Below, piece after piece: positions 13,224 through 64,000 of a DNA stretch of 64,000 nt. The notes under the pieces are model-generated. The model had not been told where the DNA came from and made no database searches. It was given only the letters and a program-made list of their open reading frames with translations. Origin of the DNA: Paramacrobiotus metropolitanus (taxonomy: Eukaryota > Tardigrada > Eutardigrada > Parachela > Macrobiotidae); the NCBI RefSeq assembly GCF_019649055.1, contig NW_026570265.1, positions 372,001-436,000 on the forward strand, in the 5' to 3' direction. How positions within the stretch are numbered: position 1 is the stretch's first letter; each line of letters opens with the position of its first letter. Made by a program: the position numbers and the translations under genes.

Positions 13224-14030
13224 ACAAGAATTACTACTTATAACTTATGCCTTATCACTGACAACTTGCTGGATAATCTTCGGATTTGACAACAGCAGTT
13301 GTAACAATATAATCCAATCGAATCAGATGGTAAAGCCGCAAATGATGAGTACCAAAACCTTAGTAATAAATCGCAATTGAAGAATGTAAACAATTATAAA
13401 TCGCACATCTTTTTAAAAAATTACGAAAGAATTTTGAAGAAGTACGAAATCTGACACATACGTATATTAAATTATTAATGCTGCCGCTCACGTAACCCCA
13501 CACCGAGCCACACGCAGCGGTGGTGTTGTCTGCTTTCGCCGTTTTTGTAACATTCTGTTTCTTTTTCTTAAAATTAATAACTAAGTTCCTGTTTTACTAG
13601 ACCGCGTGCGATGACAAAGTGCTGCTTGTGGCAAAATTCAAAATGCACCATTAATTGGATTTACGCCCATTTTTTTACTGGAATTTTCAATATTTTTAAG
13701 TTAAGCAGTTTGACATGGTAAAGGTGCTGTGCGACTGAAAAAAGGCAGTAGCAATATGCATGGAGAAACATAAATTCAAAGATTGTTATTCGTAACTGCT
13801 AGACAACGGGAGTACGGCACGACGACACAGTAGATTTGAATTTCAGACACTCTCGGCATCTCCCGAAGACGGAAAATGAAAATTCCAAAAATTCGGTTTT
13901 TTGGAATTTTCAGAAGATGACAGGTTCAGCCAAAATGCTTAGCCTGGCAAATTTCCGAGCCGAGCTAAAACTCTGACCAATCACAGCTTCCTTGGCGTGA
14001 CGTCAATTTCAATTTTCGGTAGCACGATCA
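13224..14030. other. Intergenic, no gene recognised
   Basis: AT-rich DNA upstream of the disordered-protein gene. No coding signal or RNA gene seen. A 47-bp dispersed repeat begins just beyond it. Confidence 0.5.
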
Positions 14031-14031
14031 T

Positions 14032-14078
14032 TTTCGACTTCCGGTTGCATTTTGCTTTGGAGCAAATCGCACTAGGTA
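14032..14078 (+). repeat. 47-bp dispersed repeat, copy 1
   Basis: Begins TTTCGACTTCCGGTTGCA and matches 35616-35662 in the same orientation with two mismatches over 47 bases. It lies just upstream of the PSMD6-bearing duplication; the second copy lies between FNTB and MCM4 with no pseudogene next to it. Confidence 0.8.
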
Positions 14079-14130
14079 CACTGTTCCTTCTGCGACTACC
14101 GTTAGCTGTTGCATAGTACATTAATATGGC

Positions 14131-15570
14131 GGTCCGTTTGGGTCAGCAGCCGTTTTTCAAGTTTTCGAGTTTTCTCGTTTGCCAGTTTGTCGGTGGTTTG
14201 CACATTTTCACGATTCGCACGTGTGCACGATTTCATGTATTGACGTGCGCACATGTGCACAATTTCTTGATTTTCAGTTTTTGATACTGTTGGTGTTCTT
14301 GATTTCAGGTTTTCGTGTTTTCAGTTTTTGAGACCTTGATTAATGATTTTTTTTTTATTTTTGATTTTCATTTTTGCGATTTATTATTATTTTTTGATTC
14401 AGATCCTTTAATCCAGAAAATTCAGTTTGGCCGCGGTGGTTTCATCCCGAAATTCCTAGTTGGCATTCCGAGAACTTTTTCCTGGAATTCCTGATTGGCA
14501 TTCCGAGGACTTTTTCCTAAAAGCCCATGCAAATAAGGCCGATTCCTTCGCCGTTGATCTGTTTGAATTGATGGTGGAATTTACTGGAGGCTCTCAGGCT
14601 CACTAAGATTTTTTCTTTTTGCATCACATTAGATCGAAATTCAAGCACTGTTTTGTTGATATGCAGCCCGTGACGAAGTTCAGCCCCACTGCCTACAAGA
14701 TCAGCATGCGTTCCATGTCCAGCGCTGTGCATATGCTCCAGGATCGTCTGTCTGTGTTATGCCAATACATGGCCACCGTGGAGCAGAAACAGTTGCCACC
14801 GGACAATAATTATTGGGTAGCATGAATTTGGAATTGTAATGCTACCTGCGTGTTTTCTTTGACGTTAAAAAACGTATGGTTTAATGCGGACACTTCTTCG
14901 CTTAACCAACTGTGGCAGAAGAACGAGCAGAAAATTAAAAAACTTGACGCGGCAATTTCGGATGTTTAAAGAATTTCGGATCTGTCAAAGTTCGCGAAGC
15001 GTACCTTGCCAAGTTTAATAATCTTTCCCGCACTGGAGACAAGGTGGGGGAATGTTTAAAGATTTCTCATGCTTGAGAATGCATAGCTTGTTTTGCACTA
15101 GGAAGGGGCTGAAAGTGCGTTTCGACAGCGCTTTGAAAAAACCGTAAGTCAAGGCAACAAACTCGATCCGATTTTCCAAATTGTCCGTATCGGTATCTTC
15201 TTTGAGGATTTGGATTTAACCGCACACATTTTGGATAAAGCATGGAGGTGCGTACTGCTTGGCTTCGAAGTGGTTAAGAAGTTTCTGCGCATATCTGTTA
15301 TGATTTTGCCAATTATTATGATCGGTTTTCTTTTTTTATGCACAGTCTGCTGGAGCAGGGCGGTGATTGGGATCGACGAAACCGGCTAAAGGTGTACGAA
15401 GCATGAAGATGCTTGAGTTTCCAAAAGCCACCATTAATTTTCTGGACGCAGTTAGCACATTTACCTGTTCGGAGATACATATTAGACTACGATACCTACG
15501 TGGCGTATAACGTCATGTGCGCGATGCTGACGCTGGAACGAGCGAAACAAAGAAAAAGTTAAAAGTGGTG
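14131..15570 (+). pseudogene. PSMD6: PSMD6 (proteasome Rpn7) pseudogene fragment inside duplicated segment, copy A
   Basis: PSMD6/Rpn7 is a PCI-domain lid subunit of the 26S proteasome. From about 14910 this strand encodes broken pieces in order: QKIKKLDAAISD, then AYLAKFNNLSRTGDKV, then across an intron-like gap ending in an acceptor near 15346 the block [17 protein letters not shown], then FLDAVSTFTCSE and YDTYVAYNVMCAMLTLER. Frames change and stops intervene, so it cannot encode a full protein. Upstream (14620-14825) is a coding-like stretch FVDMQPVTKFSPTAYK, then VHMLQDRLSVLCQYM and KQLPPDN. It weakly resembles the region after the MPN domain in CSN6/Rpn8/eIF3f proteins, which I rate as tentative. 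The whole block, including AT-rich low-complexity DNA at 14131-14500, has an inverted partner at 29537-32390. Confidence 0.8.
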
Positions 15571-18300: not shown

Positions 18301-20110
18301 TCACAGATTCAATGGAAAGGTTTGATGCAACATTTCTTTGGCCGCTTGAAACAAAGGAATTCCGTAAAATCGGTCCTCTTGAGTAATGTCCAGATTGGCT
18401 AAGACGAAGGCAGCTTCATTAGGGTACAGGCTGACAATATCAAAAACGGGGACAGAATCTCGTGAATGCGCCGCATTATTCGTTATGAATTCCGGAAAAT
18501 TTTCAGGGATATCTACATTGGATTGCGGCAAAGGATCACCTAACATAACTTGCTGTAAGGAAAATCCTTTTAGCTTCTTTTCCCGGCATCCAAGAGTGAA
18601 AATTTGCCGAGGAGACATATTACGTTCGGTTTCCAGTTTATGGTTGTTAAAAAAGGAGATGAAATTATTCAGCTTCATTTGGATTCGATCCACAAAAATT
18701 AGATGCAGAAGCATCACGTCTCGCTGGCTGTTAATATCCAGAATTCCCATGTTTTCCATATGTATAAAAACGGATCGAAACAATTTCAGTACAACCCGTC
18801 CCAGATCGCGCCACAACCGTTCAGTGCGCTGGATGTGAACGGAAGGCCCTCTAATAATACTTCCACGATTCGGACCCATGTAATGCTCCATCCAGCGGGC
18901 AACGCCAAAATTTTCCCCTATGAAATTTTCATATTTAGAAAACTGCAACTCACTATATATGTACTTATTGTGCTACTCACCGCCGCAATCTGTGCGAACT
19001 CTAGATGGCACTCCGGATGACGCGCAGGCATTGACGAAAGCTTGCAGAACTGTACTCGCACGGTTATTTGTCGCAGCCAGTAGCGAAACGACAAACCTAG
19101 AGTATCCATCAATAATTCCGTGCACAACAATACCCCATCGAACCAGTTTATGATTGCCATCCAGGTGCCACAATGCGTTCGGCCCGGGATTTGAATACTG
19201 CCGGCAAGGAACAAATCGGAAAAAGCGCATGGCAACGGCAAACGGATCCAACCGTCTCATGGAACTGATCACCCTGTGACGTGGCAAAGTTAATCCATTA
19301 GACTTTAACTGCGCCCGTACAAATCTGTATCCCACATTTGGAAAGGACTCCAAAATTTCAGTAACAGCAATATCCAGGTCATCGTCAGCAACCATGGAGT
19401 TCTAAAAAGTAAACTGGAAAGCTGAAAACACAATACGATTGCATTACGATTACTGTTCAATGATTTATAGTACGAAATGTATCGTACCAATAAAACATTT
19501 GTCATATGGATTTTCATCAGAACTAAGTGAAAGCTTTCTCGATAATAACTTATTAATACATTTTTAATATTGAATTCTGTTTCTTAGATGTACCAATAAA
19601 AGGGTAGATACAAAGTCTTTCACTGTACCTTCCTGTTTAGATCTGCTTCTTGCAACCGGCGTTGGACCGTTTTTGGCGAAATTTCATAGAATGCCGCAAT
19701 ATCTTTCACAGTAAAACCGTCGAATCTCAGCTCCGCTAGATCATCCTCTGGTATCATAATCTTGCCTTTGTAACCCGTTTGCACAGCCAACTGGGAATCC
19801 ATGGCGCCTCCATTTTCGTCTTCTCGTAACAAAGTGCGCAAACCAGTGGAATGTTCACATAGAACATCAAATAATCGCTGAGCTTGGACAGTCTGATCTT
19901 CAGGAAAACTTTCAAAACGTCTCTCGTATAACTGTAAATTTGATAGATCTATTTGGACTGTCTAAATGGCTCGTGCACTTCGAATTACCCGATCATGTAT
20001 TCAATCTGAGTAACAGTCCCATCCACACCATCCCGATCACCGTCTGCGGAAGCTAGCAGCCTCGTAGAACGCCTTATAATAGAATCAGCATAATTAAAAA
20101 ACTGTTCCAT
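18301..20110 (-). CDS. DDE integrase (rve-type) with N-terminal helix-turn-helix, intron-containing
   Basis: This resembles the rve/integrase-core proteins spread through animal and fungal genomes, which derive from a transposon integrase. Exons: 19401-18981 and 18917-18301 are firm, 19629 to about 19960 is likely, and a first exon at 20110-19986 (MEQFFNYADSIIRRS) is probable but its junction phase is unresolved. Order: a helix-turn-helix (FTVKDIAAFYEISPKTVQRRL), a linker with an HTH-like EILESFPNVGYRFVRAQL, then the catalytic core. The three acidic residues are present: LWHLDGNH, RTDCGGEN (rebuilt across a 63-bp intron with GTGAGT donor) and the Glu in QRTERLWRD. GPNRGS precedes the last motif, as in the family. 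No stops or shifts interrupt the core. No terminal repeats were found, so it may be domesticated or a 5'-diverged element. Confidence 0.8.
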
Positions 20111-25102: not shown

Positions 25103-28100
25103 TTAGTTAAACTGAAAAGAACCTTGCTCCACAGAAACAACCGCAACACTTGCAATACATTGGCGAATACCAGCAAGCAATTTTTCTTGAGATGAACAGC
25201 CGGTTGGCAATGTAAGACGATTAAAACATGTGCAAGCTGTTGGCAACCAGTCTGCATCCAATTCGGGGCTGAATTCTATACGGATTGGTGTTCTCGGGGC
25301 ACAAATAGAAGCCGTAATGAAACGCAATAAGTGCTGACGTTCAACACAGGACAAATCGTTGGAGACGAGACTTTCGAACCATTCGAAGACGATTTCCTTA
25401 CTGAATTTCCAAATGCCAGATCCAAAGTTTGGTGGCTCAATCTTGCTCAGCAGATCATGGGCAGATGTAACCGCCCAAAAAAATGATTCTTCGAGATCCT
25501 TCCAATAAGAGATCAGCCGGCGTATTTCCTTACACATGAAAACGTTTGTATGTACACCAGTAAAGATAGGTATCATGATGTTATACATATGCATTGCATT
25601 TGCAGGAATTTTCGGTACTTTAATTGTAAGCTTAAGTAATCCAAGCACTCAGAGTTTCTTACAATGAAAACCGGTTGTACGTACCCGTTCCATGCTACCG
25701 GACAGCATTCCTTCCAGAACGTACTTGACATTTGCTGCTCTTTTTTCAACCAACTCATACTGCGCCAGGTGACGACAAAATGTTTCTCTTTCCAGCTTCG
25801 CCATACCGGAAATCTAGAATAAAATAAAAAAACTGAATAAAATTTAAAAGCTTTTTTTCAACTTCTAGAATTTATTTTGTTACACAGATACACAGACCGC
25901 CTGTTTTCTTTGAACCTACGTTAAACGATGGGTTTAATTCTGACCATTCCACGAAAAAAGGTACTTGAGTAATCACAATATCTCCACTGCCCATAAGGAT
26001 ATGGCTTATCATCTCTCCGACGCTCTTTTTGAAATCGTGGATATCATTCAATTCCACTGGTAAACCCAACAGTGCACGAAAAACCGAATTATTCAGCCAC
26101 ACTGGAGATGGTGCGTAACGAAGAATCGCCTCACGCAAAGCAAATCCCATACATCGCAACAAGTTTTTTCCTTCGTCGGACATAACAACTGAACTCGTTA
26201 ATAATACTTTGCAACCAGCTTCCTCAAAAACGGTTGATCCTAGCTCATCCAGTTTAAAATGGCGGAATGCTTCCCACAGGACGGTAAACAGTTCTTTGTA
26301 GGGTCCGCCCAAATCACAAGCACTGTAGCCAACATAACCAGTGTTTCGATTGCCTCCGTAAAAAGTAGCGTCAAAGGTCACTCGCCATGTAGCATTGCAA
26401 AAAGATGAACTAAACAACCTCACAATCTTATTTAACGGAAAATGTTGACAACTTACTCATTTCTCCTGACTTTAATCCGGCCACCAAGCTCCAGATTAAC
26501 CCTGTGCGCGGTATAACATTCAATGAAAACGCGGACAAGAGTCTCTAGATCACAAGCATTCCATTGAAAAACAGCTTCCGATAGGGCCGATGAGTGGGAG
26601 CCAGTAACAGCTTGACACACCATTTCCCGAACAGCCTCTAAATCTGGGTGTTCCGGACTCGGAGGGAGAGGGTCAACTCGCATCATCACTTTTATCGGTG
26701 TTCTGATTACGGTGTGATTACCCAGGTTGACGGCATCGACGCCACCATCACTAACACTTTGGGCTGAGTTAATTCCTTCATCGCCATCCACAGTTGTCGC
26801 TCGTATGACAGACCCGGAGTCACCGGTAGACGGCGATCCAATAACGTTTTCAGCATCGTCCTCTACAATAACGACATCTTGCTGTGGCTGTTCAGTGCGA
26901 TTCACTACAATCTGACGGGGAGAATCCGGAAACTGTGTAGTGTCGAATTCACTGGAAGACCCATAGCCATACGAATTCCTCGGATCCCTGGGCCGTGATT
27001 TGGCTGGAGCTCTCGGACGGGAGATGAGTCTGAACTGTCCAAATCAACATCGACATTCATTTGGTCGTATGAGCGGCGTCGTGACCCTCGTGAGGTCGAT
27101 GGTTCACATTCCGGCAACATCTGCGGAGATACGGCTGCACTCCCGCGGCGCACTTTCTCTGCATTGCATAAGAATAACAGAATTTGATATAACCTCTTAA
27201 TGCATAACTACAAATTTTTTATTATTTTGTTACCTTCGACGTTTTTTACTTTTAAATCTTCAACTTCTACACCCCGCATCTACAAAACCCAAGTCAAATG
27301 GTCAGAACAACTGTATTGCAGTCAAATTAAAAAACGGTAAAATTCCACATATAATGTACGAGTACAGTACTTAGTACTTACTTCAGCAAACTGTGCAACA
27401 ACATCATACGGCACAGTGATAGCGTTCGTCGCTGGGACGATAAATAAGTAGGGATTTAACTCCGTTCGTTTTTTCTCCGTGTACCTAGAAAGAACGAAGA
27501 AAATATAGAAGGAAATTTTGCTTTTAAGCTTTACGGTAAAAACGGGCAAGCTTACGACTTAAAATTTTCCCAAGCACTGGGAGCGTTAAAATCAACCGGA
27601 AACAGATAATTTCCCTCTGCTTTTCCGTCTTCCATTCGAGTAATAACAACCCAGTCTCGGCCCTGAAGTACATCACTGAACGCCTCCGTCACACGTCCCG
27701 AATTTCTTCCATGGTTGCATTGTTGCATGTAACTTCTCGAATCAGGTTAAAGTGCTTCATCAAATCGATCTCATTGAAATGACATCTGTTAAAATCACCA
27801 AAAGCATATTATTGAGTAAGAACCTTGAAGTGTCCTAAGTAAGTAAGATTGCACCAGCGTCCTATTACTGCAGTGCATTGAGAGTACACCTTTCATTTTC
27901 GCTTCGTAAATCAGTATGCTTCGTAAAAACTTGTCAACCGGCTCAGTATGTTCAGATACAAACATTTTAAAATTACACAATAATTGCGCTTAATTTGATT
28001 ACAGTTTGGCTTCACTTACGCATCCATTCCACGTGCAGGAATAACGTTAAACTCCGTTTTGCGAAAAAGGTGAACCATGAATACATGTTTTTGTAGAACA

Positions 28101-29536: not shown

Positions 29537-31420
29537 TCAGAGGTTAATAACTCTTGAGAGGCGCTGGATGTTCCTCAGCAAATGATCAACTTGTTTAATA
29601 AACAACTGATATTGCCTTTTCTTGTTGGCTGGCCGGGATGTTTCCATACACCGTTCATCTTTAAAAAAATTAATATAGTCAGTAGAAAATTTATTTGATA
29701 ACAGCATTTTATGTACGGAATACTTCTTAGTCTGCTGTTCTTCATGTAAAAAACCCAGAAAATCATGTGCCACCAGTTATTACGAATACTGTACTGTAAG
29801 TACAACTTGTACTTATACCCGTCTCCTGCATGCCATTACTGATTGCCAATACGTTTCTAGTACCTACAAAGCAGGCAACAAACAATCCTCTTCCAACTAA
29901 TCTGCAAACTTTCAAACATTTGCTTGGTTCATCACAACCAAGAGTACTGGTTGAACCGAACTAAAGCATGCATAATAAAAAAACCGATAATCTGCGATTC
30001 GCCGGTGATCTCTGATTTTACAAACGAGAGGAATACAGGAACATAAGATAAGCAGTTTTTATAAGTATTATCAAGTTAATTAATTACTGACCTTGTCAAT
30101 CTTACAGTGCAGGCGACCAGCGGCAATAAGCGCGATAATCCGTTGTCAATAAAACCAGCCGTAACACCAAAAGCCTGGACGATGCAATCGAGCGTTAAGA
30201 ATTGATCCACCAGCTGATTAGTTGTAGACGAGGATACGCATTTTCCGAGTGTAGTAGCGGTAATGGTCAGCCCACTACCGGTCCACTTCCAAAATCTGCT
30301 GAACGTTTGTTGTAATTTGAATAAAATCACAACAATTGCTTAGAACTTCAAATTACCTTTTCGGAAAGAAAAACCTACCCAGCTGTAGAAACAATTCAGC
30401 ATAATGCGATCCGTACAACGAGTTGAAAAACTGTCGCAAATTCGGCATTCTAAGCAAACCTTCCACAATCTCCGCGCTCCGGACACACCTATTACAATGG
30501 TATTTGATTAGCAACATAATAAGAACCAGCCGCCATAGTTACAACTTGGGACGAAATGGTCGCATACCCAACATCTCCACATTCAGTACGAATGCAGCGA
30601 AGTGCACTGTACGACTGAGTTCAAAATATCCGTTTCGTACAAGTGCACTGCACCGCTTGCGTACAGAATGCTGGGTACGGGGCTATGCAACCATTTGGTC
30701 CTACATCGTATGTATTCGATCCAGCCGCAATGAAAGTTGCAAAACCGTATAATAGTCTCCGAACAGGTAAATGTGCTAACTGAGCCCAGAAAATTGGTGG
30801 TGGCTTTCAGAAACTCACGCATCTTCATGGCTCGTACACCTTCAACCGGTTTCGCCGATCCCAATCACCGCCCTCCTCTACCAAGCTGTGCATAAAAAAA
30901 AAGAACCGCTCATAAGAAATCGCAAAATCATAACAAAACTAGCAAAATCACAGTTACGCGCAGAAATTTCTGAAAATAAGTATACGTATAGAAGCCAAGC
31001 ATTGCGTACCTCCGTGCTTAATTTAAAAGCAACGGAGGTACGTTTGAGTTTGTTGTCTGTCCTACGGTCTTTTTAAAGCACTGTCGAAACGCACTTTCAG
31101 ATGCATCCTAGTGTGAAACAAGTTGGGCATTCGCAAGAACGAGGACTCTTTAAACATTCTTCCACCTTGTCTCCAGGGCGGGAAAGATAATTAAACTGTG
31201 CAAGGTACGCTTCGCGCACTTTAATAGATCCCAAATTCTGTTAGGCATCCAAAATTGGCGCGTCAAGTTCCTTAAGTTTCTGCTCGTACTTTTGCTACAG
31301 TCGGTTAAGTAAAGAAGTGTCCGCATTAAACCCATACGTTTTTTAACGTCGAGAAAAACACTGGCAGCCTCACGACTCCCAATTCATGCTTCCAGCAAGA
31401 TTAAAGATTCCCAACACTAC
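29537..31420 (-). pseudogene. PSMD6: PSMD6 (proteasome Rpn7) pseudogene, copy B
   Basis: Read on the minus strand this copy covers most of Rpn7 in order: [129 protein letters not shown], and the C-terminus RNIQRLSRVINL, almost identical to the family ending. Lesions: in-frame stops in the KLDA block near 31250-31300, a frame change after KVYE near 30830, another at LVYN/LVDQ near 30220, and loss of one base near 30125 before IAAGRLHCKIDKV. Intron positions persist (for example the donor near 30380), so this is an unprocessed duplicate. A functional parental gene is not in the window. Confidence 0.9.
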
Positions 31421-31592
31421 TTGAAAAACCGCAGGAAATAAAAAATATATTTCCATTTGATAACGAATTTTTTTTTAGCAGCTTCGGATTTTACACCGCC
31501 TCTGAGCCATTGAGCGCATGCTCTGACTGGTCTTCTAGAAGCGGTACAACGCAACGGCTTCCTTCCACGGATTTTCAACTGCGATAACGGAT

Positions 31593-32390
31593 TTACCAAC
31601 GACTTACCACATTGTCCTTTTTCTGCTGCTCTTCCAAATCCAGGCTCTGTACCTGAGTGTAGCGTAATGTGGCATCTCTACAATCTCTACTACGCTTCAG
31701 TTCCACGAGAATATCGTTATCTGGTGGCAACTGTTTCTGCTCCACTGTGGCCATGTACTGGCATAACACAGAGACGATCCAGGAACATATGCACAGCGTT
31801 GGACAATAAACGCATGTCGATCTTGTAGGCAACGGGGTTGAACTTCGTCACGGGCTGGATATCAACAAAAAGGGGCTTGAACCTCCATCTAATGTTATGC
31901 GCAAAAAAAATCTTACTGGCATCCAGCAAGTTCCACCATTGTTTCGAACAGATCAACGGCGAAGGAATCTGCCTTATCTTGGACGTTCAGAAAAAAGTCC
32001 TCGGAATGCCAACCCGAAATTCCAGGATAAAGTCCTCGGAAGTGGGAATACCAACTAGGAATTCCTAGATGAAGCCACGGTGGCCGGACTGAATTTTCTG
32101 GAATAATGGATCTGAATAAAAATAACTAAATCAATTAAAATGAAATTTAAAAAAGTCATTAATCGAAAATTTAAAAATGGAATACACGAAAACCTGAAAA
32201 CGAAAAAACAAACAATCTCAAAGACCGAAAATATGAAAATCAGGAAATCGTGCACATGTGCAAACGTCAAAACATGAAATCGTGCACACGTGCGAATCGT
32301 GAAAATGTGCAAACCGACAAACTGGCAAACGAGAAAACTCGAAAACTTGAAAAACGGCTGCTGAACCAAACGGACCGCCATACATGGAGC
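31593..32390 (-). repeat. Inverted partner of 14131-14830, with CSN6/MPN-tail-like fragment
   Basis: The reverse complement of this region matches copy A through the low-complexity CTCGAAAACTTGAAAAACGG-type sequence, the GTGCACACGTGCGAATCGTG block, the repeated GGCATTCCGAGGACTTTTTC units, and the coding-like part. That part reads PLFVDIQPVTKFNPVAYK, NAVHMFLDRL, VLCQYMATVEQKQLPPDND and then LVELKRSRDCRDATLRYTQV. A one-base frame change separates LDRL from VLCQYM. Resemblance to CSN6 (LFxxLxPMTK and the AIKMLxxRVxxILEYV helix) is my reading and is tentative. Confidence 0.7.
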
Positions 32391-34884: not shown

Positions 34885-36189
34885 ATGTTTTGCTTTCTGT
34901 TGTTTAGGAGAAGCTGGTGAAACAATGGATTGTTAGTTAAATTTGGTACAATTTGGTATTGATGAACAGTAGTGTTGAGGCAGAATTGGTTAGTTAAGGT
35001 ATATTGTGATAGTAAAAGGATCGGGAGAACTTTTGTGAGACTTGAAATTGCAGGATTCCTGTAGCGTATTTCTTATTATTTTATCAAGCGTATTGGAGTA
35101 CTAAAAAAACGTCCAGATCGATTCCTGCTTCTGTGCGAAATCAAAAAAGCAGTTGTGTCAACTTATGCGGGACGCTAGGCGGTATTCATTCCCAGGTACT
35201 GGTACGGCAGTGGTACTGGAAACGCGTAAGTATTTTGTTTATTATTTTTCCTCACCAAAGCATTTACAGTAACTTAGAAGGCAATCCCTCTTATTAAGCA
35301 TCAATCGAGAGGGGCGGCCTAATTACAGAGAAAATTTGATCTAAATTTGCTCCCAATGGCGCTGTCCCCATGATCGATGCACGCGTAAGTAATAGATCCC
35401 AGCCGGTTATAGCTCGCGTTCGTGCAATGATGTAGCGAAAAACCACCGCTAGTATTTAACTGACTAAAGATACTTAACTACTCGTACTGATATTTTGATA
35501 AAATAATGACAATAAATGCCGGAAGTGCGTCTACTTGCTCGGCTTGGAAGAAATGGGCTACAAATTGTACTTACCTCGTTTTGTCCGCGGGCGATCGAAG
35601 CGTTTGGCACCTTCATTTCGACTTCCGGTTGCACTTTGCTTTGGAGCAAAGCGCACTAGGTAGACTAGTACTATTCAAACGATTGTGGTTCTTTATTTAA
35701 AATTTCATTTTATTTCTTAATAATTGTCAACTGTGGAGCGCGCCGGCTCGTGTTATTTTCTTTTATTTTTGGCTTTTGCTGAATAAAGTTACAAAAAAGA
35801 ATAAAAATACCCATACGGGCCGTATGATACGGCCATACCGGCGGGATTATCGTTCCAACAGGACGAGGGCGCCACTGTGCTACACGCAAATCTGCCATTG
35901 TCAATGCGAGCATCATGTTGTCGTTTACCCGCTAAAAACCGACTGAAATGAATACATACATACGATGAAGAGTTCAGAAAACACTGGAGCATTCTGAATT
36001 TTTGATCGAGTTAGAAACTAAGAAACCCGTTATTTAACTTTGGAATCATCCCCTTCAGATTCTGCCTTTTGGATTGTAATTATTCAAGTAAGTAATAAGT
36101 TTTTTAGGTTCATTGGGCGTTTCACTATCTGGTGGAAACATTTTGCATCGCATCCCTGTGCTCAGTGTGCTTTGTTAGTAAATGAGTAG
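34885..36189. other. Intergenic, with one dispersed repeat
   Basis: No gene recognised. The second copy of the 47-bp repeat lies at 35616-35662. The MCM4 promoter and possibly a first MCM4 exon should fall in the last few hundred bases. Confidence 0.5.
35616..35662 (+). repeat. 47-bp dispersed repeat, copy 2
   Basis: Matches 14032-14078 in the same orientation with two mismatches, about 21.6 kb apart. It lies in the spacer between FNTB and MCM4. Confidence 0.8.
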
Positions 36190-55300: not shown

Positions 55301-56188
55301 ATGGCCTCATCAGAAGAACAACGAGCCACGCAGCTCCTGGCGGAAGCCGAGAAAAAAGCCGCGGGAGGTTCCTCCGGAGGATTTTTATCCAGCGCTTTCG
55401 GCAATCGCAACAGTAAAATGGAGGACGCCATTGAGCTGTTCTGCCAAGCCGCCAATCAGTTTAAAATGGCCAAAAACTGGAACCAGGCTGGTTACGCCTT
55501 TACCCAAGCAGCGGAAGGTAGCCGGAAGCTCGACAAGAAACATGATGCGGCTATGAAGTTTGTCGATGCCAGTGTCTGCTACAGGAAAGCAGACGCTAAC
55601 CGCGCCGTGGACTGCCTGAAAAAAGCTATAGAAATTCAAACGGAAATGGGAAAATTCAGCATGGCAGCAAAGCAGCATATTAACATTGCCGAAATTTACG
55701 AAACAGAACTGCAGAATATCGCACAAGCCATCCAGCATTACGAGAAGGCTGCCGATTATTTTCAGGGAGAAGAAAATAAAAGCCAGGCGGCTGCTTGCTT
55801 GCAAAAAGTGGCCCACTACGCTGCGGACCAGGAAGACTACATGAAGGCCATTCAGATTTTCGAGGAGATTGGCAACCGGAATGCCGGAAACGCTGTGCTG
55901 AAACACAGCGCAAAGGACTACTTTTTTAAAGCGGCTTTATGCCATTTATGCGTCGATCCTCTTAACGCGCAACATGCGGTGGCGCGATACGAAAAGACGT
56001 TCCCAGCTTTCCAGGATGCACGGGAATGTAAATTGGTTAAAGCAGTTTTGACAGCCATGGAGGAGTCGGACGTGGATAGTTTCACCGGAGCGGTCAACGA
56101 CTATGATAAAATTTCTCGCTTAGACCAATGGACAACGCAACTGTTGCTTCGTGCTAAGCGAACACTGGGAGAATCTGACTTAACGTAA
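55301..56188 (+). CDS. NAPA: Alpha-SNAP, intronless coding copy 1
   Basis: Alpha-SNAP binds SNARE bundles and recruits NSF to take them apart after membrane fusion. A single open frame of 295 residues starts at MASSEEQRA (55301), the family start; the frame is open 13 codons further up but those residues are not SNAP-like. It contains TPR-like helices throughout: FCQAANQFKMAKNW, IEIQTEMGKFSMAAKQHINI, LCHLCVDPLNAQHA, and the C-terminus LDQWTTQLLLRAKRTLGESD with the conserved Leu-rich end that stimulates NSF. No coding intron is present, unlike most genes here. A close paralogue lies 1.4 kb downstream in the same direction. Confidence 0.95.
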   Translation: MASSEEQRATQLLAEAEKKAAGGSSGGFLSSAFGNRNSKMEDAIELFCQAANQFKMAKNWNQAGYAFTQAAEGSRKLDKKHDAAMKFVDASVCYRKADANRAVDCLKKAIEIQTEMGKFSMAAKQHINIAEIYETELQNIAQAIQHYEKAADYFQGEENKSQAAACLQKVAHYAADQEDYMKAIQIFEEIGNRNAGNAVLKHSAKDYFFKAALCHLCVDPLNAQHAVARYEKTFPAFQDARECKLVKAVLTAMEESDVDSFTGAVNDYDKISRLDQWTTQLLLRAKRTLGESDLT

Positions 56189-57622: not shown

Positions 57623-58522
57623 ATGGCAGAGAAATCCGCCAGTCCCGAAGAACAGCGAGGCATGAAGCTGATTGCAGAGGCGGAAAAGAAAGCGGGCTCT
57701 GGGAAATCAGGAGGATTTTGGTCCAAGTTCGCTGGAGGTGGCTCAAGCAAAATTGACGAGGCAATTGATCTCTTCTGTCAAGCCGCCAACCAGTTTAAAA
57801 TGGCCAAGAACTGGAGTCAGGCTGGCTATGCGTTCAGCCAAGCCGCCGGACTGAATTTGCAGTCGGACAACAAGAACGAAGCAGCCAGTAAATATATCGA
57901 CGCCAGTGTGTGTTACAAGAAAATCGACGCCAATCAAGCCATCGAATGCCTGAAAAAAGCCGTAGAAATCCAAACCGAAATGGGCCGCTTCAGTATGGCC
58001 GCCAAACAGCATATTACGATTGCGGAGATTTACGAGTCGGAACTGCAGAACATCGATCAGGCCATTGTGCATTACGAGCGGGCGGCCGATTACTATCAAG
58101 GCGAGGAATCCCAGAGTCATGCCGCCAAATGTCTGCAGAAGGTGGCGCATTATGCCGCCGAAAAGGAGGACTACATGAAAGCCATTCAGATCTTCGAGCA
58201 GATTGCCAACCGAAATGCCGAGAATGCCATGCTGAAGTACAGCGCCAAGGAGTACTTTTTCAAAGCGGCACTGTGCCATTTATGCGTCGATCCGCTGAAT
58301 GCGCAGCACGCGTTAACACGCTACGAAGAGACATTCCCGTCATTCCAGGATACTCGAGAGTATGGATTGTTGAAGAAAGTTTTGGGTTGTATGGAGGATT
58401 CCAATGTGGATGGTTTCACGGAAGCTGTCCGCGAATACGATAGCATTTCCCGGATCGACCAATGGACAACGCAGCTGCTGCTGCGCGCGAAACGAACCTT
58501 GGGTGAAGCTGATCTGACATGA
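57623..58522 (+). CDS. NAPA: Alpha-SNAP, intronless coding copy 2
   Basis: Second alpha-SNAP: 299 residues from MAEKSASPEEQRG (57623). Like copy 1 it is intronless and complete, with GGFWSKFAGGGSSKIDEAID at the membrane-binding loop, ANQFKMAKNWSQAGYAF, IEIQ-type VEIQTEMGRFSMAAKQH, LCHLCVDPLNAQHA and the same C-terminal QWTTQLLLRAKRTLGEADLT. The two proteins are very similar in the TPR core and differ mainly in the N-terminal loop and last third. The frame continues 31 codons upstream without SNAP-like sequence, and an in-frame ATG exists at 57530; the conserved start is preferred. The hydrophobic loop (GFW against GFL in copy 1) is the family's membrane-contact site. Confidence 0.95.
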   Translation: MAEKSASPEEQRGMKLIAEAEKKAGSGKSGGFWSKFAGGGSSKIDEAIDLFCQAANQFKMAKNWSQAGYAFSQAAGLNLQSDNKNEAASKYIDASVCYKKIDANQAIECLKKAVEIQTEMGRFSMAAKQHITIAEIYESELQNIDQAIVHYERAADYYQGEESQSHAAKCLQKVAHYAAEKEDYMKAIQIFEQIANRNAENAMLKYSAKEYFFKAALCHLCVDPLNAQHALTRYEETFPSFQDTREYGLLKKVLGCMEDSNVDGFTEAVREYDSISRIDQWTTQLLLRAKRTLGEADLT

Positions 58523-59426: not shown

Positions 59427-61345
59427 TCAGTAATCCCTGGAAATGCTGTTCGTGTAGCTGATGCTGTTATGGTTCCTTTCTCGAATCCCAGAAACGCGGG
59501 CGCGAATATTGAAAACTTCCTGCAGTGCATCTCGAAAGCAGAAAAAGTTATAATCAATGAGCCCTGCAAGCGAAAGCAATGTTTTTGAACATGTTCTTCA
59601 CCGTTTTCTAAAGAAATATTCAGATAATGTCAAGTGCAAGCCATCCGATTACCTTGTCGGGAAAAGTTTTCCTCACGCAGCAGACATACCAAAGCAAGAT
59701 ACTTGTTGACCTCACGCAAATACAGAATGTACGAGCTATTCAGGCGAATAATGGACGACGACTGGCTGTCAAAAGCGCTAGCCTCCACATCTTCACGCAT
59801 ACTGCAATCACACAAAATCTTATTCATTTTCAGTATGTGCAACGAAATTTTTTTCGTGAATAATCTGATAATATCACGTACCCGTAAATATAAGAAACAT
59901 CGATGACCACATCGATAAAATCACAACACAGTTCGTAGGATGCCATATCCACTGGGTTACTGTCAGTTGCCACATAGATTTTGCTGACAACGTCGAATAA
60001 AAAGGCCTTTTCGATGTTCGAATTCTGAAACCAACTTCAATGAAAACCACATCTCCTAAAAATATCAGTATCAATAAGAAAACTAACCGAAATAAATATA
60101 TTTAACAAATTCTCCATGGTGGGCAATTGAGGAATCAATTTCTGCACGACTTTGCTGAATGCCTCGAAAATTGAATGGTCATAAATGCTCGTCAAATAAA
60201 AACTGAAAGTAGTCAGAACAAGGCGCATTTTTATCTGACTAAGTACAGAATGGCAAGATCGGATCACACCCACCTCAAATGGATGTTTTCCAATCCCGTA
60301 TCAGAAAGCTCATCATTGGCACGTGAGTGAATATCACGTTGCGTTTCAATTTTTTGATCGTCCGATAAGCCATCCACTTTGTGGATAAACACTTCGAAAT
60401 GGATGTTCGGGTTGACTTTGAATGCGCGACTAACCGTCGCATGCAGTTTTTCAAGAGCATCCATGTAATCATCCTAAAAAGCGAAAAAGTGATTTGCGCA
60501 AAACATCCCCAATCGACAAAGATAAATAACAGCCAATTAATTCCATACTTGAGCATCCAATATGAAAATGAGCGCTTCACATGCACCACCGAAAATGGTG
60601 TCTGCGTCGAAAGACGGATCGAAGAAGTCAATCTGTCCCGGAAAATCCCAAACTTGGAACTGAATAAACGAACTGCTGGAAATATCTGCACATTATAAAA
60701 ACACGGATTAACCACCAGAAGGAGTACAAATCACGTGAATAAAACAGCAGAATAAACATAACAGATTTTACACACTTTTCTGGCAGTCGAAAGCGTTTAC
60801 TATTTTTATTATACGTTCGGAGACAAATTTAAAATTGCAAATGCAAATTGTAAAGTGGAAAAACATTCACCAGTCTTAGCGTCTTACCGTCCTTCGTTAT
60901 TTTATTGGTGCTTTCCAGGAATAGAGTCTCGTTCGGTGACATTTTATGAAAAACCACCTTCTGGATGGACGATTTGCCAGACCTGTTCGCGCAACCAGTA
61001 TATATCAAAATCCTCCATTTATGAACAACTACTTAATCAACAATAACTATGGATTTCAATTATCAATCAAGTAGTACCTTCGCAAACCCATGAGCAATAT
61101 CTTTGGTTTGACTTCAGCAGGCATAAACGATCCAAACTCTGGATCGTAATCGTCCGTTCCATAACCAAATTTCGGTAATGAACCGACGGCATAGCTGCTG
61201 GACATTCCATCGTACTGGCCATCCTCATCGTACGACGACTACGAGAACACAAATCGAAAATTTGGAAAAGAAATTTTGCGTTTGGAAAAAGGTACAGTAA
61301 CGTAAATGCATGGGAAGGAAGTTGCGAATGTTTGGCTCTTACCAT
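59427..61345 (-). CDS. RRAGC: Rag GTPase C/D
   Basis: RagC/D pairs with RagA/B on lysosomes to recruit mTORC1 when amino acids are present. Nine exons join in phase to 379 residues: 61345-61343 (ATG alone), 61238-61078, 60982-60888, 60685-60549, 60473-60274, 60202-60088, 60024-59882, 59801-59653 and 59563-59427. Conserved parts: [20 protein letters not shown] (P-loop), [12 protein letters not shown] (switch I), [14 protein letters not shown] (switch II), [43 protein letters not shown], then the roadblock C-terminal domain ([48 protein letters not shown]). The first exon holding only the initiator is unusual but keeps frame, and an acidic Tyr/Ser-rich N-terminus fits the family. Confidence 0.95.
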
Positions 61346-61846
61346 TTTGATTATTATCTGATCAGTTTGTTGACTTCGTCGAGGTGGGCTTCCCAAAGCT
61401 ACATCAATCACTTTTGACTCTTTTAACTTACACGAATGATGGTGATCGCTTGCTGGATGTCAACCCAACCACGTCGCTTTGTTAGCTAAGGCATCTTTCG
61501 GCAACACAACATCGACAACAAACATCAAGATCAGAAAAAGGAAGAGCGCTCCTCCCATAAAACATAACAACTGTAATGTGATACAAATTATTGAGAAGAC
61601 GAAACAATCATAATTAATTTTATAGGTATGACCGTATGTTTACCACTTGACACTTTTTATAGTACTAACAGTAACTAACTGCTTTATTAAATTCCAGCGA
61701 CGCTTTGAAAAATTTCTTGTGACTTCTGCCTACAACACCACTGTCAGGTGTGCGGTATAATGTTCATCCAGCGCTAGTAGAACAGGCAAACGCACCGTAG
61801 CAAGGGAAGCCCTCGCATCAGCAATCTACACTACAGCAATCTACAC
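61346..61846. other. Intergenic, no gene recognised
   Basis: Region upstream of RRAGC up to the foldback element. No coding or RNA gene signal seen. It ends with the 7-bp target duplication TCTACAC at 61840-61846. Confidence 0.5.
61840..61846. repeat. Target-site duplication TCTACAC, left
   Basis: Seven bases directly before the foldback element, repeated exactly at 62487-62493 directly after it. Confidence 0.8.
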
Positions 61847-62486
61847 GAGTGCACAATAATATTGTGCAGAAGTGGCGTCTTATTTGATTTTATTCGTGAT
61901 TTTACAGCCATTGCACCATCTGTGGACCCTCCAGTTGTTAAGTGACAACGTAACAGAAGCACGCGTGCGGGGGCCCATGCCACAGGCTGTTTTAACGTAA
62001 ATCTTTGAAAATTCATAACTTTGTTCATTCCTGCATTAAATTTTTATGTATAGTCTTGAAAAATGCAGAATAATACACAGCATTAGACAAAATAAATGCT
62101 TCTCTGTTTCCTCTTCAGGGTAACGCACTAGGAGCCCCTGCGGTTAACATAGCCGCCTATGACAAATCCCCCATAGGCGGCTATGGTAGCCGTACAGGCT
62201 AACAGGGCATAACCCTGAAAGAAAAACAAGAAAAAATTTATTTTGCCTAATACTGTGTATTATTCTGCATTTTTCAAGACTATACATAAAAATTTAATGC
62301 AGAAATGAACAAAGTTATGAATTTTCAAAGATTTACGTTAAAACAGCCTGTGGCATGGGCCCCCGCACGCATGCTTCTGTTACGTTGTCACTTAACAACT
62401 GGAGGGTCCACAGATGGTGCAATGGCTGTAAAATCACGAATAAAATCAAATAAGACGCCACTTCTGCACAATATTATTGTGCACTC
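61847..62486. mobile_element. 640-bp foldback (MITE-like) element with 7-bp target duplication
   Basis: Two arms of about 250-280 bp are near-identical reverse complements (61847 to about 62130 and about 62205 to 62486). Outer ends read GAGTGCACAATAATATTGTG on each side, themselves containing a small palindrome (GCACAATAATATTGTGC). Flanks carry TCTACAC immediately left (61840-61846) and right (62487-62493), a perfect 7-bp target duplication. The central spacer holds a second nested hairpin (CATAGCCGCCTATG and its complement). Matching 60-codon open frames in both arms mirror each other because the arms are identical; they have no recognised domain. No transposase is encoded, so it would be non-autonomous. 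Confidence 0.9.
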
Positions 62487-62493
62487 TCTACAC
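62487..62493. repeat. Target-site duplication TCTACAC, right
   Basis: Pairs with 61840-61846. The match breaks on the next base at both sides, so the length is seven. Confidence 0.8.
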
Positions 62494-62668: not shown

Positions 62669-64000
62669 ATGGCGGAAACAAATGCGCCTGGCTTAAATGT
62701 GAATGTTAAGAGAGTTTTTCGATATGCTTTTATTGCTTGTGTGTATGTCATTGGTGTATTCTGGAGTGTCGTTTGGATATGCAGCAACTTCCTCACAATC
62801 CTGCGAAATCCCACAGGATTCTTCACTGTGAAGAAACGTGCCAAGCCGCCTGCAGTCCTTCAGGATCCTGCTTTGGGGGAACACGGCTATCTGCATCTTA
62901 AGGTGAGATGAACACGGGAAAAGGGACACTGGAAAAGCGTCATGAAAAAGGCAATGGTGGATGCCTTGCATGTTAGCGCATTTCTATGAAAAATTCTAGA
63001 ATGTTCTTCATAATTGATTTGTCTAACAATGTTCCCTTTTGAGTACATTTTTCCTGATCCCTCGTTTCCTGATTTTGCTTAGAACGGCATCAGAATTCAT
63101 TACGTGGCTTCTGGACCACCGGATGCTCCTTTGATGCTTTTCCTGCATGGCTTTCCAGAGTTTTTCTATACTTGGCGGCATCAGATACGTTATTTCAAAA
63201 ATTCCTATAGGTGAGTTTAGCAGCACACACGTATTATAAGTTTGTTAACCCAGTTGTGTGGAAATTGTTTTAGAGTTGTGGCGGTGGACTTGAGAGGCTA
63301 CGGAGATTCGTCAAAGCCTTCTAATTACGCGGAGTACGAAATTCGTAAACTATGCGAAGATGTGCGATTGATCATCCAGAGCTTGCAACGCGCTTCCTGT
63401 ATTCTTGTCGGACACGACTGGGGCGGTACGCATGTATAGACTGCTTCGGTTTATGGTTTTCGTTAAATCGGTATTTACCGTTCACTAATGTATTGTTGGG
63501 AGGTTCAAATTGTTCAATACATTATGTACACGTTGTAGTATACTACCAGTAAAAGTTATGGTTCAGTGAACACAGACGTTTAATAGCTTTTCCAGCACCG
63601 CCACTATCGGCAATCGGCGATTTATTTTTGACAGGTATGATAGCATGGAATTTCGGTTCATTGTACCCGGAAATGGTCTCCAGCATGGTGGTAATTAATG
63701 CGCCCCATCCAGCCGTTTTCTGGAAGTTTGCAATGAAAAACCCGAAGCAGCTACTAATGAGCTGGTGCGTTTTGCATACTTCTACTGCACCTGTGCGAAA
63801 AGCTGCGCATATCAGACACGTATTAAACCGAATGCATACAAGTAGTGCATAGTTTATGTAAACGAATTTCGCATACAAGTAGTGCATAGTTTATGTAAAC
63901 GAATTTCGTCCTTTTTAGGTACATCTTCATGTTCCAGCTTCCCTTCCTACCTGAGTTTTTCCTGAGCTCCAGTGATCTTAAATTTCTGGAAGAGATATTC
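62669..64000 (+). CDS. EPHX4: Epoxide hydrolase 4-like alpha/beta hydrolase (cut by window end)
   Basis: EPHX3/4 are membrane-anchored alpha/beta-fold epoxide hydrolases acting on lipid epoxides. Exons 62669-62902, 63083-63210, 63274-63425, 63635-63764 and 63919 onward join in phase. Start MAETNAPG at 62669 is followed by a membrane anchor ([18 protein letters not shown]). Then [10 protein letters not shown], the oxyanion-hole motif [28 protein letters not shown], the nucleophile elbow [13 protein letters not shown] with catalytic Asp, [11 protein letters not shown], and [19 protein letters not shown] up to the window edge. The cap domain's second half, the acid and the His lie beyond the window. 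The last intron has a 37-bp tandem duplication. Identity as EPHX4 rather than EPHX3 is likely but not certain. Confidence 0.9.
63834..63907 (+). repeat. 37-bp tandem duplication in EPHX4-like intron
   Basis: A 37-bp unit at 63834-63870 (starting GCATACAAGTAGTGCATAG) is repeated without gap or mismatch at 63871-63907, ending just before the acceptor of the next exon. Confidence 0.9.

Follow-up and report, generated by a model that had tools for sequence, protein, structure and literature searches.

We report here a 640-bp sequence, at positions 61847-62486 of the analysed window (a stretch of 64,000 nucleotides from the tardigrade Paramacrobiotus metropolitanus), which folds back on itself along almost its entire length. 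Judged from its sequence, it is very probably a non-autonomous foldback-type DNA transposon of the long-TIR, MITE-like sort, with a superfamily that is not nameable from a single copy. The insertion is real, well formed and of an ordinary kind, and represents a known type of gene-less genome parasite. Only one of its features was unexpected: the identity of its arms changes abruptly about 235 bp from the tips.

Aligned without gaps to its own reverse complement, the element is identical at 584 of 640 positions (91%), and this near-complete inverted repeat runs exactly between the coordinates given in the first-pass annotation. Two inverted arms of 315 nt each (61847-62161 and 62172-62486) are 92% complementary and are separated by a spacer of 10 nt. 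The left outer arm (61847-62086, plus strand) pairs with the right outer arm (62247-62486, minus strand) over 240 bp; an earlier description of these arms as identical over about 250 bp was nearly right, yet three mismatches per 240 positions leave them 98.75% alike. Between them lie the diverged inner arms (62087-62246), gap-free and mismatched at 25 of 80 paired positions. At the centre is an inner hairpin (62148-62185), in which a perfect 14-bp stem (62148-62161 with 62172-62185) encloses a loop of 10 nt (62162-62171). Each tip is also palindromic, with a stem of 9 and a loop of 1 (61850-61868 on the left, 62465-62483 on the right), so that both the palindromic tips and the second inner stem are present as had been claimed. 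The 19-base palindrome falls within the first and last 24 bases of the element, the two tips are alike at 18 of 19 positions as direct copies, and the tip sequence reads GAGTGCACAATA. Single-base shuffling of the 240-bp arm gave a stem of at least 9 (loop of at most 5) in the first 30 bases in 8 of 20,000 shuffles, and a stem of at least 9 (loop of at most 10) anywhere in the arm in 5 of 500.

An exact direct duplication of seven bases, TCTACAC, abuts the left tip at 61840-61846 and the right tip at 62487-62493, and the earlier proposal of a foldback insertion flanked by this duplication is supported by the sequence. The flanks disagree once extended by a single base beyond TCTACAC; a duplication of 8 bp is obtained only with a mismatch and with ends that are unequal, and one of 9 bp only with two mismatches. 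When a 640-bp segment was placed at random in the window, the flanking 7-mers agreed by chance in 9 of 200,000 cases. Elements of the hAT type have an 8-bp duplication and a characteristic end consensus; here the end 8-mers differ, and the tip GAGTG fits the hAT consensus only partly. The left flank is itself repetitive, with the 13-bp sequence CAGCAATCTACAC present twice, 15 bp apart, at 61819-61846 (starts at 61819 and 61834), the left target duplication forming the end of the second copy. Owing to this repeat, a third TCTACAC lies close to the insertion, at 61825; elsewhere in the window the motif occurs in two further places, plus three on the other strand. With one extra TCTACAC already in place within the flanking 13-bp repeat, the duplication could in principle be local repetition that was there before, although this is the weaker explanation of the flank match. 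Directly after the right duplication stands TCGATTCC; the predicted empty site is therefore CAGCAATCTACACTACAGCAATCTACACTCGATTCC, and the insert-free target site would read CAGCAATCTACACTCGATTCC.

The same repeat lends something to an explanation in which nothing was mobile, namely that a replication template switch copied an arm backwards and that the 7-bp repeat is a remnant of CAGCAATCTACAC, already present twice in the left flank. That a second copy of the element is not known, with none in the window, would also fit such a local inverted duplication. However, on either side the arms run precisely up to the direct repeat, the palindrome is not continued outward, a source for the arm is absent elsewhere in the window and the inner arms carry old divergence, all of which makes this explanation improbable. 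Under the transposon reading, mobility is inferred from the anatomy, because there is only one copy, no transposase with the same tips was seen and TCTACAC is already contained in the flanking 13-bp repeat.

A blastn search with words of 7 returned no second copy in the window, where only the tips matched each other, and when the window was scanned with the 24-base tip at a tolerance of 8 mismatches, all hits away from the tips were weak ones, with 7 or 8 mismatches. Neither the window nor the few collections searched, mostly of prokaryotes or viruses, yielded a relative. Three exact patterns had no match among viral contigs, one exact pattern had none among prokaryote genomes, and distant blastn had none among plasmids and phages. 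A second pattern gave a lone 20-base tip match among the prokaryote genomes, in a Bauldia MAG, which extends to 22 bp; it was rejected as a relative, being of a size expected by chance for 257 billion bases and accompanied only by short chance alignments. These viral, prokaryote, plasmid and phage negatives say little, because none of the collections is expected to contain the host.

The element has no transposase of its own: its six-frame translation holds no stop-free run of more than 65 codons, the longest being 65, and no open reading frame of at least 110 amino acids overlaps it. Arms that form most of the element, a direct duplication exactly at the tips and the lack of an own transposase are together the structure of a foldback element. 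Internal tandem repeats in the arms are reported as typical of classical FB elements and Galileo. Tandem Repeats Finder listed no tandem array inside the element, which is closer to a long palindromic MITE than to classical FB for this reason.

We propose that another element would have supplied a DDE-type transposase, which recognised the tips, that a staggered 7-bp cut would have been made in an intergenic target and the element joined there, and that gap filling would then have left TCTACAC on both sides. On the minus strand, leftward of the element, 60273-60473 (E 2e-12) and 60549-60653 (E 4.5e-7) match the Rag/Gtr1 GTPase family, with a likely first-exon piece of this Rag-type gene at 61077-61205. 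Rightward, the plus strand has a match to the alpha/beta-hydrolase fold at 63272-63424 (E 6e-11), and two weaker matches fall below the cut-offs: 63634-63768 to alpha/beta-hydrolase (E 0.0012, below the curated cut-off) and 63083-63211 to an epoxide-hydrolase N terminus (E 0.014). The presumed first exon of the hydrolase gene (62669-62902, plus strand) had no family match in the protein-family scan. Because GTPase pieces lie to the left on the minus strand and hydrolase pieces to the right on the plus strand, the element most likely occupies intergenic DNA between a divergently oriented gene pair, some 180 bp upstream of the right gene's presumed start, both starts having been read by eye. The genes, being interrupted, are those of a eukaryote. 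Between presumed hydrolase exons, at 63834-63908, a 37-bp unit also stands twice in perfect tandem.

The arms do not differ evenly along their length. There are 28 mismatches among 320 paired positions, with three, all transitions, in the outer 240 and 25, of which 17 are transitions, in the inner 80, which are 69% alike. The difference between outer and inner rates is significant (Fisher p 6e-14; p 9e-13 without the last 19 inner positions), and a single change point fits best at 234 bp from the tip, with an equally strong step in 0 of 2,000 permutations. The high arm identity had been put down to recent activity, a hairpin transcript or gene conversion. Plain recency fails to explain the whole element, because the outer arms are 98.75% alike but the inner arms only 69%; a partial conversion of the outer arms would fit better. 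Arms of equal age, made in one event, should diverge evenly, so a later event that made the outer arms alike again offers the simplest account, and this one alignment suggests that these arms were re-copied from each other. The outer 235 bp or so may have been equalised by, for example, template switching between the arms during gap repair after excision. Such copying would run inward from the ends, and the inner 80 bp or so would retain the older divergence. Exchange and conversion among TIRs have been described for Galileo, where the within-copy TIR identity is reported to exceed 99% in two copies, versus a divergence of about 6% in two chimeric ones. Both diverged inner arms keep a pyrimidine tract followed by CAGGGT (62098-62118 on the plus strand and 62215-62235 on the minus strand), which by its look is a candidate 3' splice site oriented towards the centre on either strand, and at arm positions 252-268 eight of nine differences are C/T swaps only.

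Similarity of the arms might instead be maintained by selection on a hairpin-RNA locus, the arms being kept alike by a long double-stranded minus-strand transcript with siRNA or miRNA-like products. The single-strand fold is very stable (MFE -503 kcal/mol for the plus and -528 kcal/mol for the minus strand), but such stability is expected of any palindrome of this kind. A G-U pair would remain in the minus transcript at 16 of the 20 transition differences and in the plus transcript at 4 (two-sided p 0.012); this p value is nevertheless post hoc, and 8 of the 20 transitions fall in one pyrimidine run (6 versus 2). Moreover, selection for pairing would not explain why pairing is worst at the centre, the usual Dicer-side end, and a selected hairpin RNA is very unlikely to be what keeps the arms alike. 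No Rfam family matched at gathering score in the window. Between 61500 and 62800 there are six weak sub-threshold matches, of which five overlap the hairpin. The highest-scoring, mir-1294, has 31.3 bits versus the 90 needed; a known structured RNA inside the element was rejected, its Rfam matches lying only below gathering score.

Large perfect palindromes are a known artefact of assembly and libraries, but a foldback read or inverted chimera is scarcely credible as the source of this one, because the palindrome halts at the tips (in the flanks 18 of 60 bases match, near the quarter expected), 25 of 80 positions are mismatched between the inner arms, the middle is not a simple mirror, and flanks that are unrelated as inverted sequence have the 7-bp direct repeat in common. 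The sequence thus speaks against the assembly inversion artefact for which the first-pass annotation had allowed.

Which known transposons does the element resemble? A 7-bp duplication had been called unusual, which is only partly right: 7 bp is reported for Galileo, a foldback-like element of the P superfamily in Drosophila with the target consensus GTANTAC, and for a 936-bp inverted repeat nested in a Tm1 copy of Meloidogyne incognita (PMC3169594), 6 or 7 bp for the Dada superfamily, which inserts into multicopy small-RNA genes, and 4-10 bp for the IS256/MuDR group. Like our element, Galileo is described as having long TIRs, many non-coding copies, 7-bp duplications and arms often more than 99% alike within a copy. 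It differs in its target, GTANTAC versus TCTACAC at the one site here, and in long TIRs that are reported to be internally repetitive, whereas the element has no internal tandem array. A conserved terminal 40 bp and a transposase of P type are further marks of Galileo. Dada resembles the element in that 7 bp lies within its reported range; a Dada-type small-RNA-gene target was rejected, with no tRNA in the window or the joined flanks and no Rfam family at gathering score. For the majority of foldback elements a Mutator-type affiliation is assumed (PMC4079207), and FB, Tetris and FARE of this group share the foldback anatomy of the element as described there. The duplications given for Tetris are 8-10 bp (PMC4079207) versus 7 bp here. 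Tm1 and its nested 936-bp repeat, from root-knot nematodes, are likewise inverted-repeat sequences that are mostly non-coding, the 936-bp repeat being compared by its description only (PMC3169594). Tm1 is reported to differ in its 9-bp duplications, CGGTTAA/CCTACCC end motifs and 14-bp tandem units, none of which is found at these tips (PMC3169594). A Mutator-like foldback duplication of 8-10 bp, as in Tm1 and Tetris, was rejected, since the 8-mers at the ends differ and 9 bp is reached only with two mismatches. The element therefore has the structure of the foldback class, and Galileo, Dada and the Mutator-like elements each fail one tested feature at this single site. As the Repbase naming rule is described, a non-autonomous element is assigned by an equal duplication length plus 10/11 first terminal bases.

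Other repeats and genes were observed in the window. Two long inverted copies lie about 16 kb apart, at 14125-15475 and 30756-32382; their outermost 70 bp are 99% alike and their inner parts 80-93%, and their ends are TA...TA, with a target duplication looked for and not found. Ends of this form are the signature given for IS3EU elements. Between the copies, at 18301-19401 and 25103-25648, the minus strand carries fragments of an integrase core (rva_4, E 4e-33 and 5e-32) and of a HECT domain (E 7e-12), and on either side of the pair is a 61-bp direct repeat, 90% alike (14022-14082 and 35607-35666). The foldback element has no sequence in common with this integrase-like gene or with the long inverted copies at 14-32 kb, and a link between it and them was rejected on this ground. 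Tandem gene copies, 73% alike in DNA, are found at 55313-56178 and 57647-58512, the first matching alpha-SNAP (E 1.4e-100).

To conclude, the value of this finding is mostly one of annotation: a candidate foldback element flanked by a duplication of 7 bp can now be annotated in an intergenic region between two genes. As has been proposed for Galileo, the element could affect promoters or provoke rearrangement. A bolder and rather doubtful conjecture is that it represents an undescribed family of foldback elements with 7-bp duplications, in which the outer 235 bp or so would be repeatedly re-copied from arm to arm, from the ends inward, during repair after excision, while the inner arms would evolve freely and single copies would record the length of the repair tract. 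If other copies share the identity step, the re-copying of arms during repair would become measurable from sequence alone.
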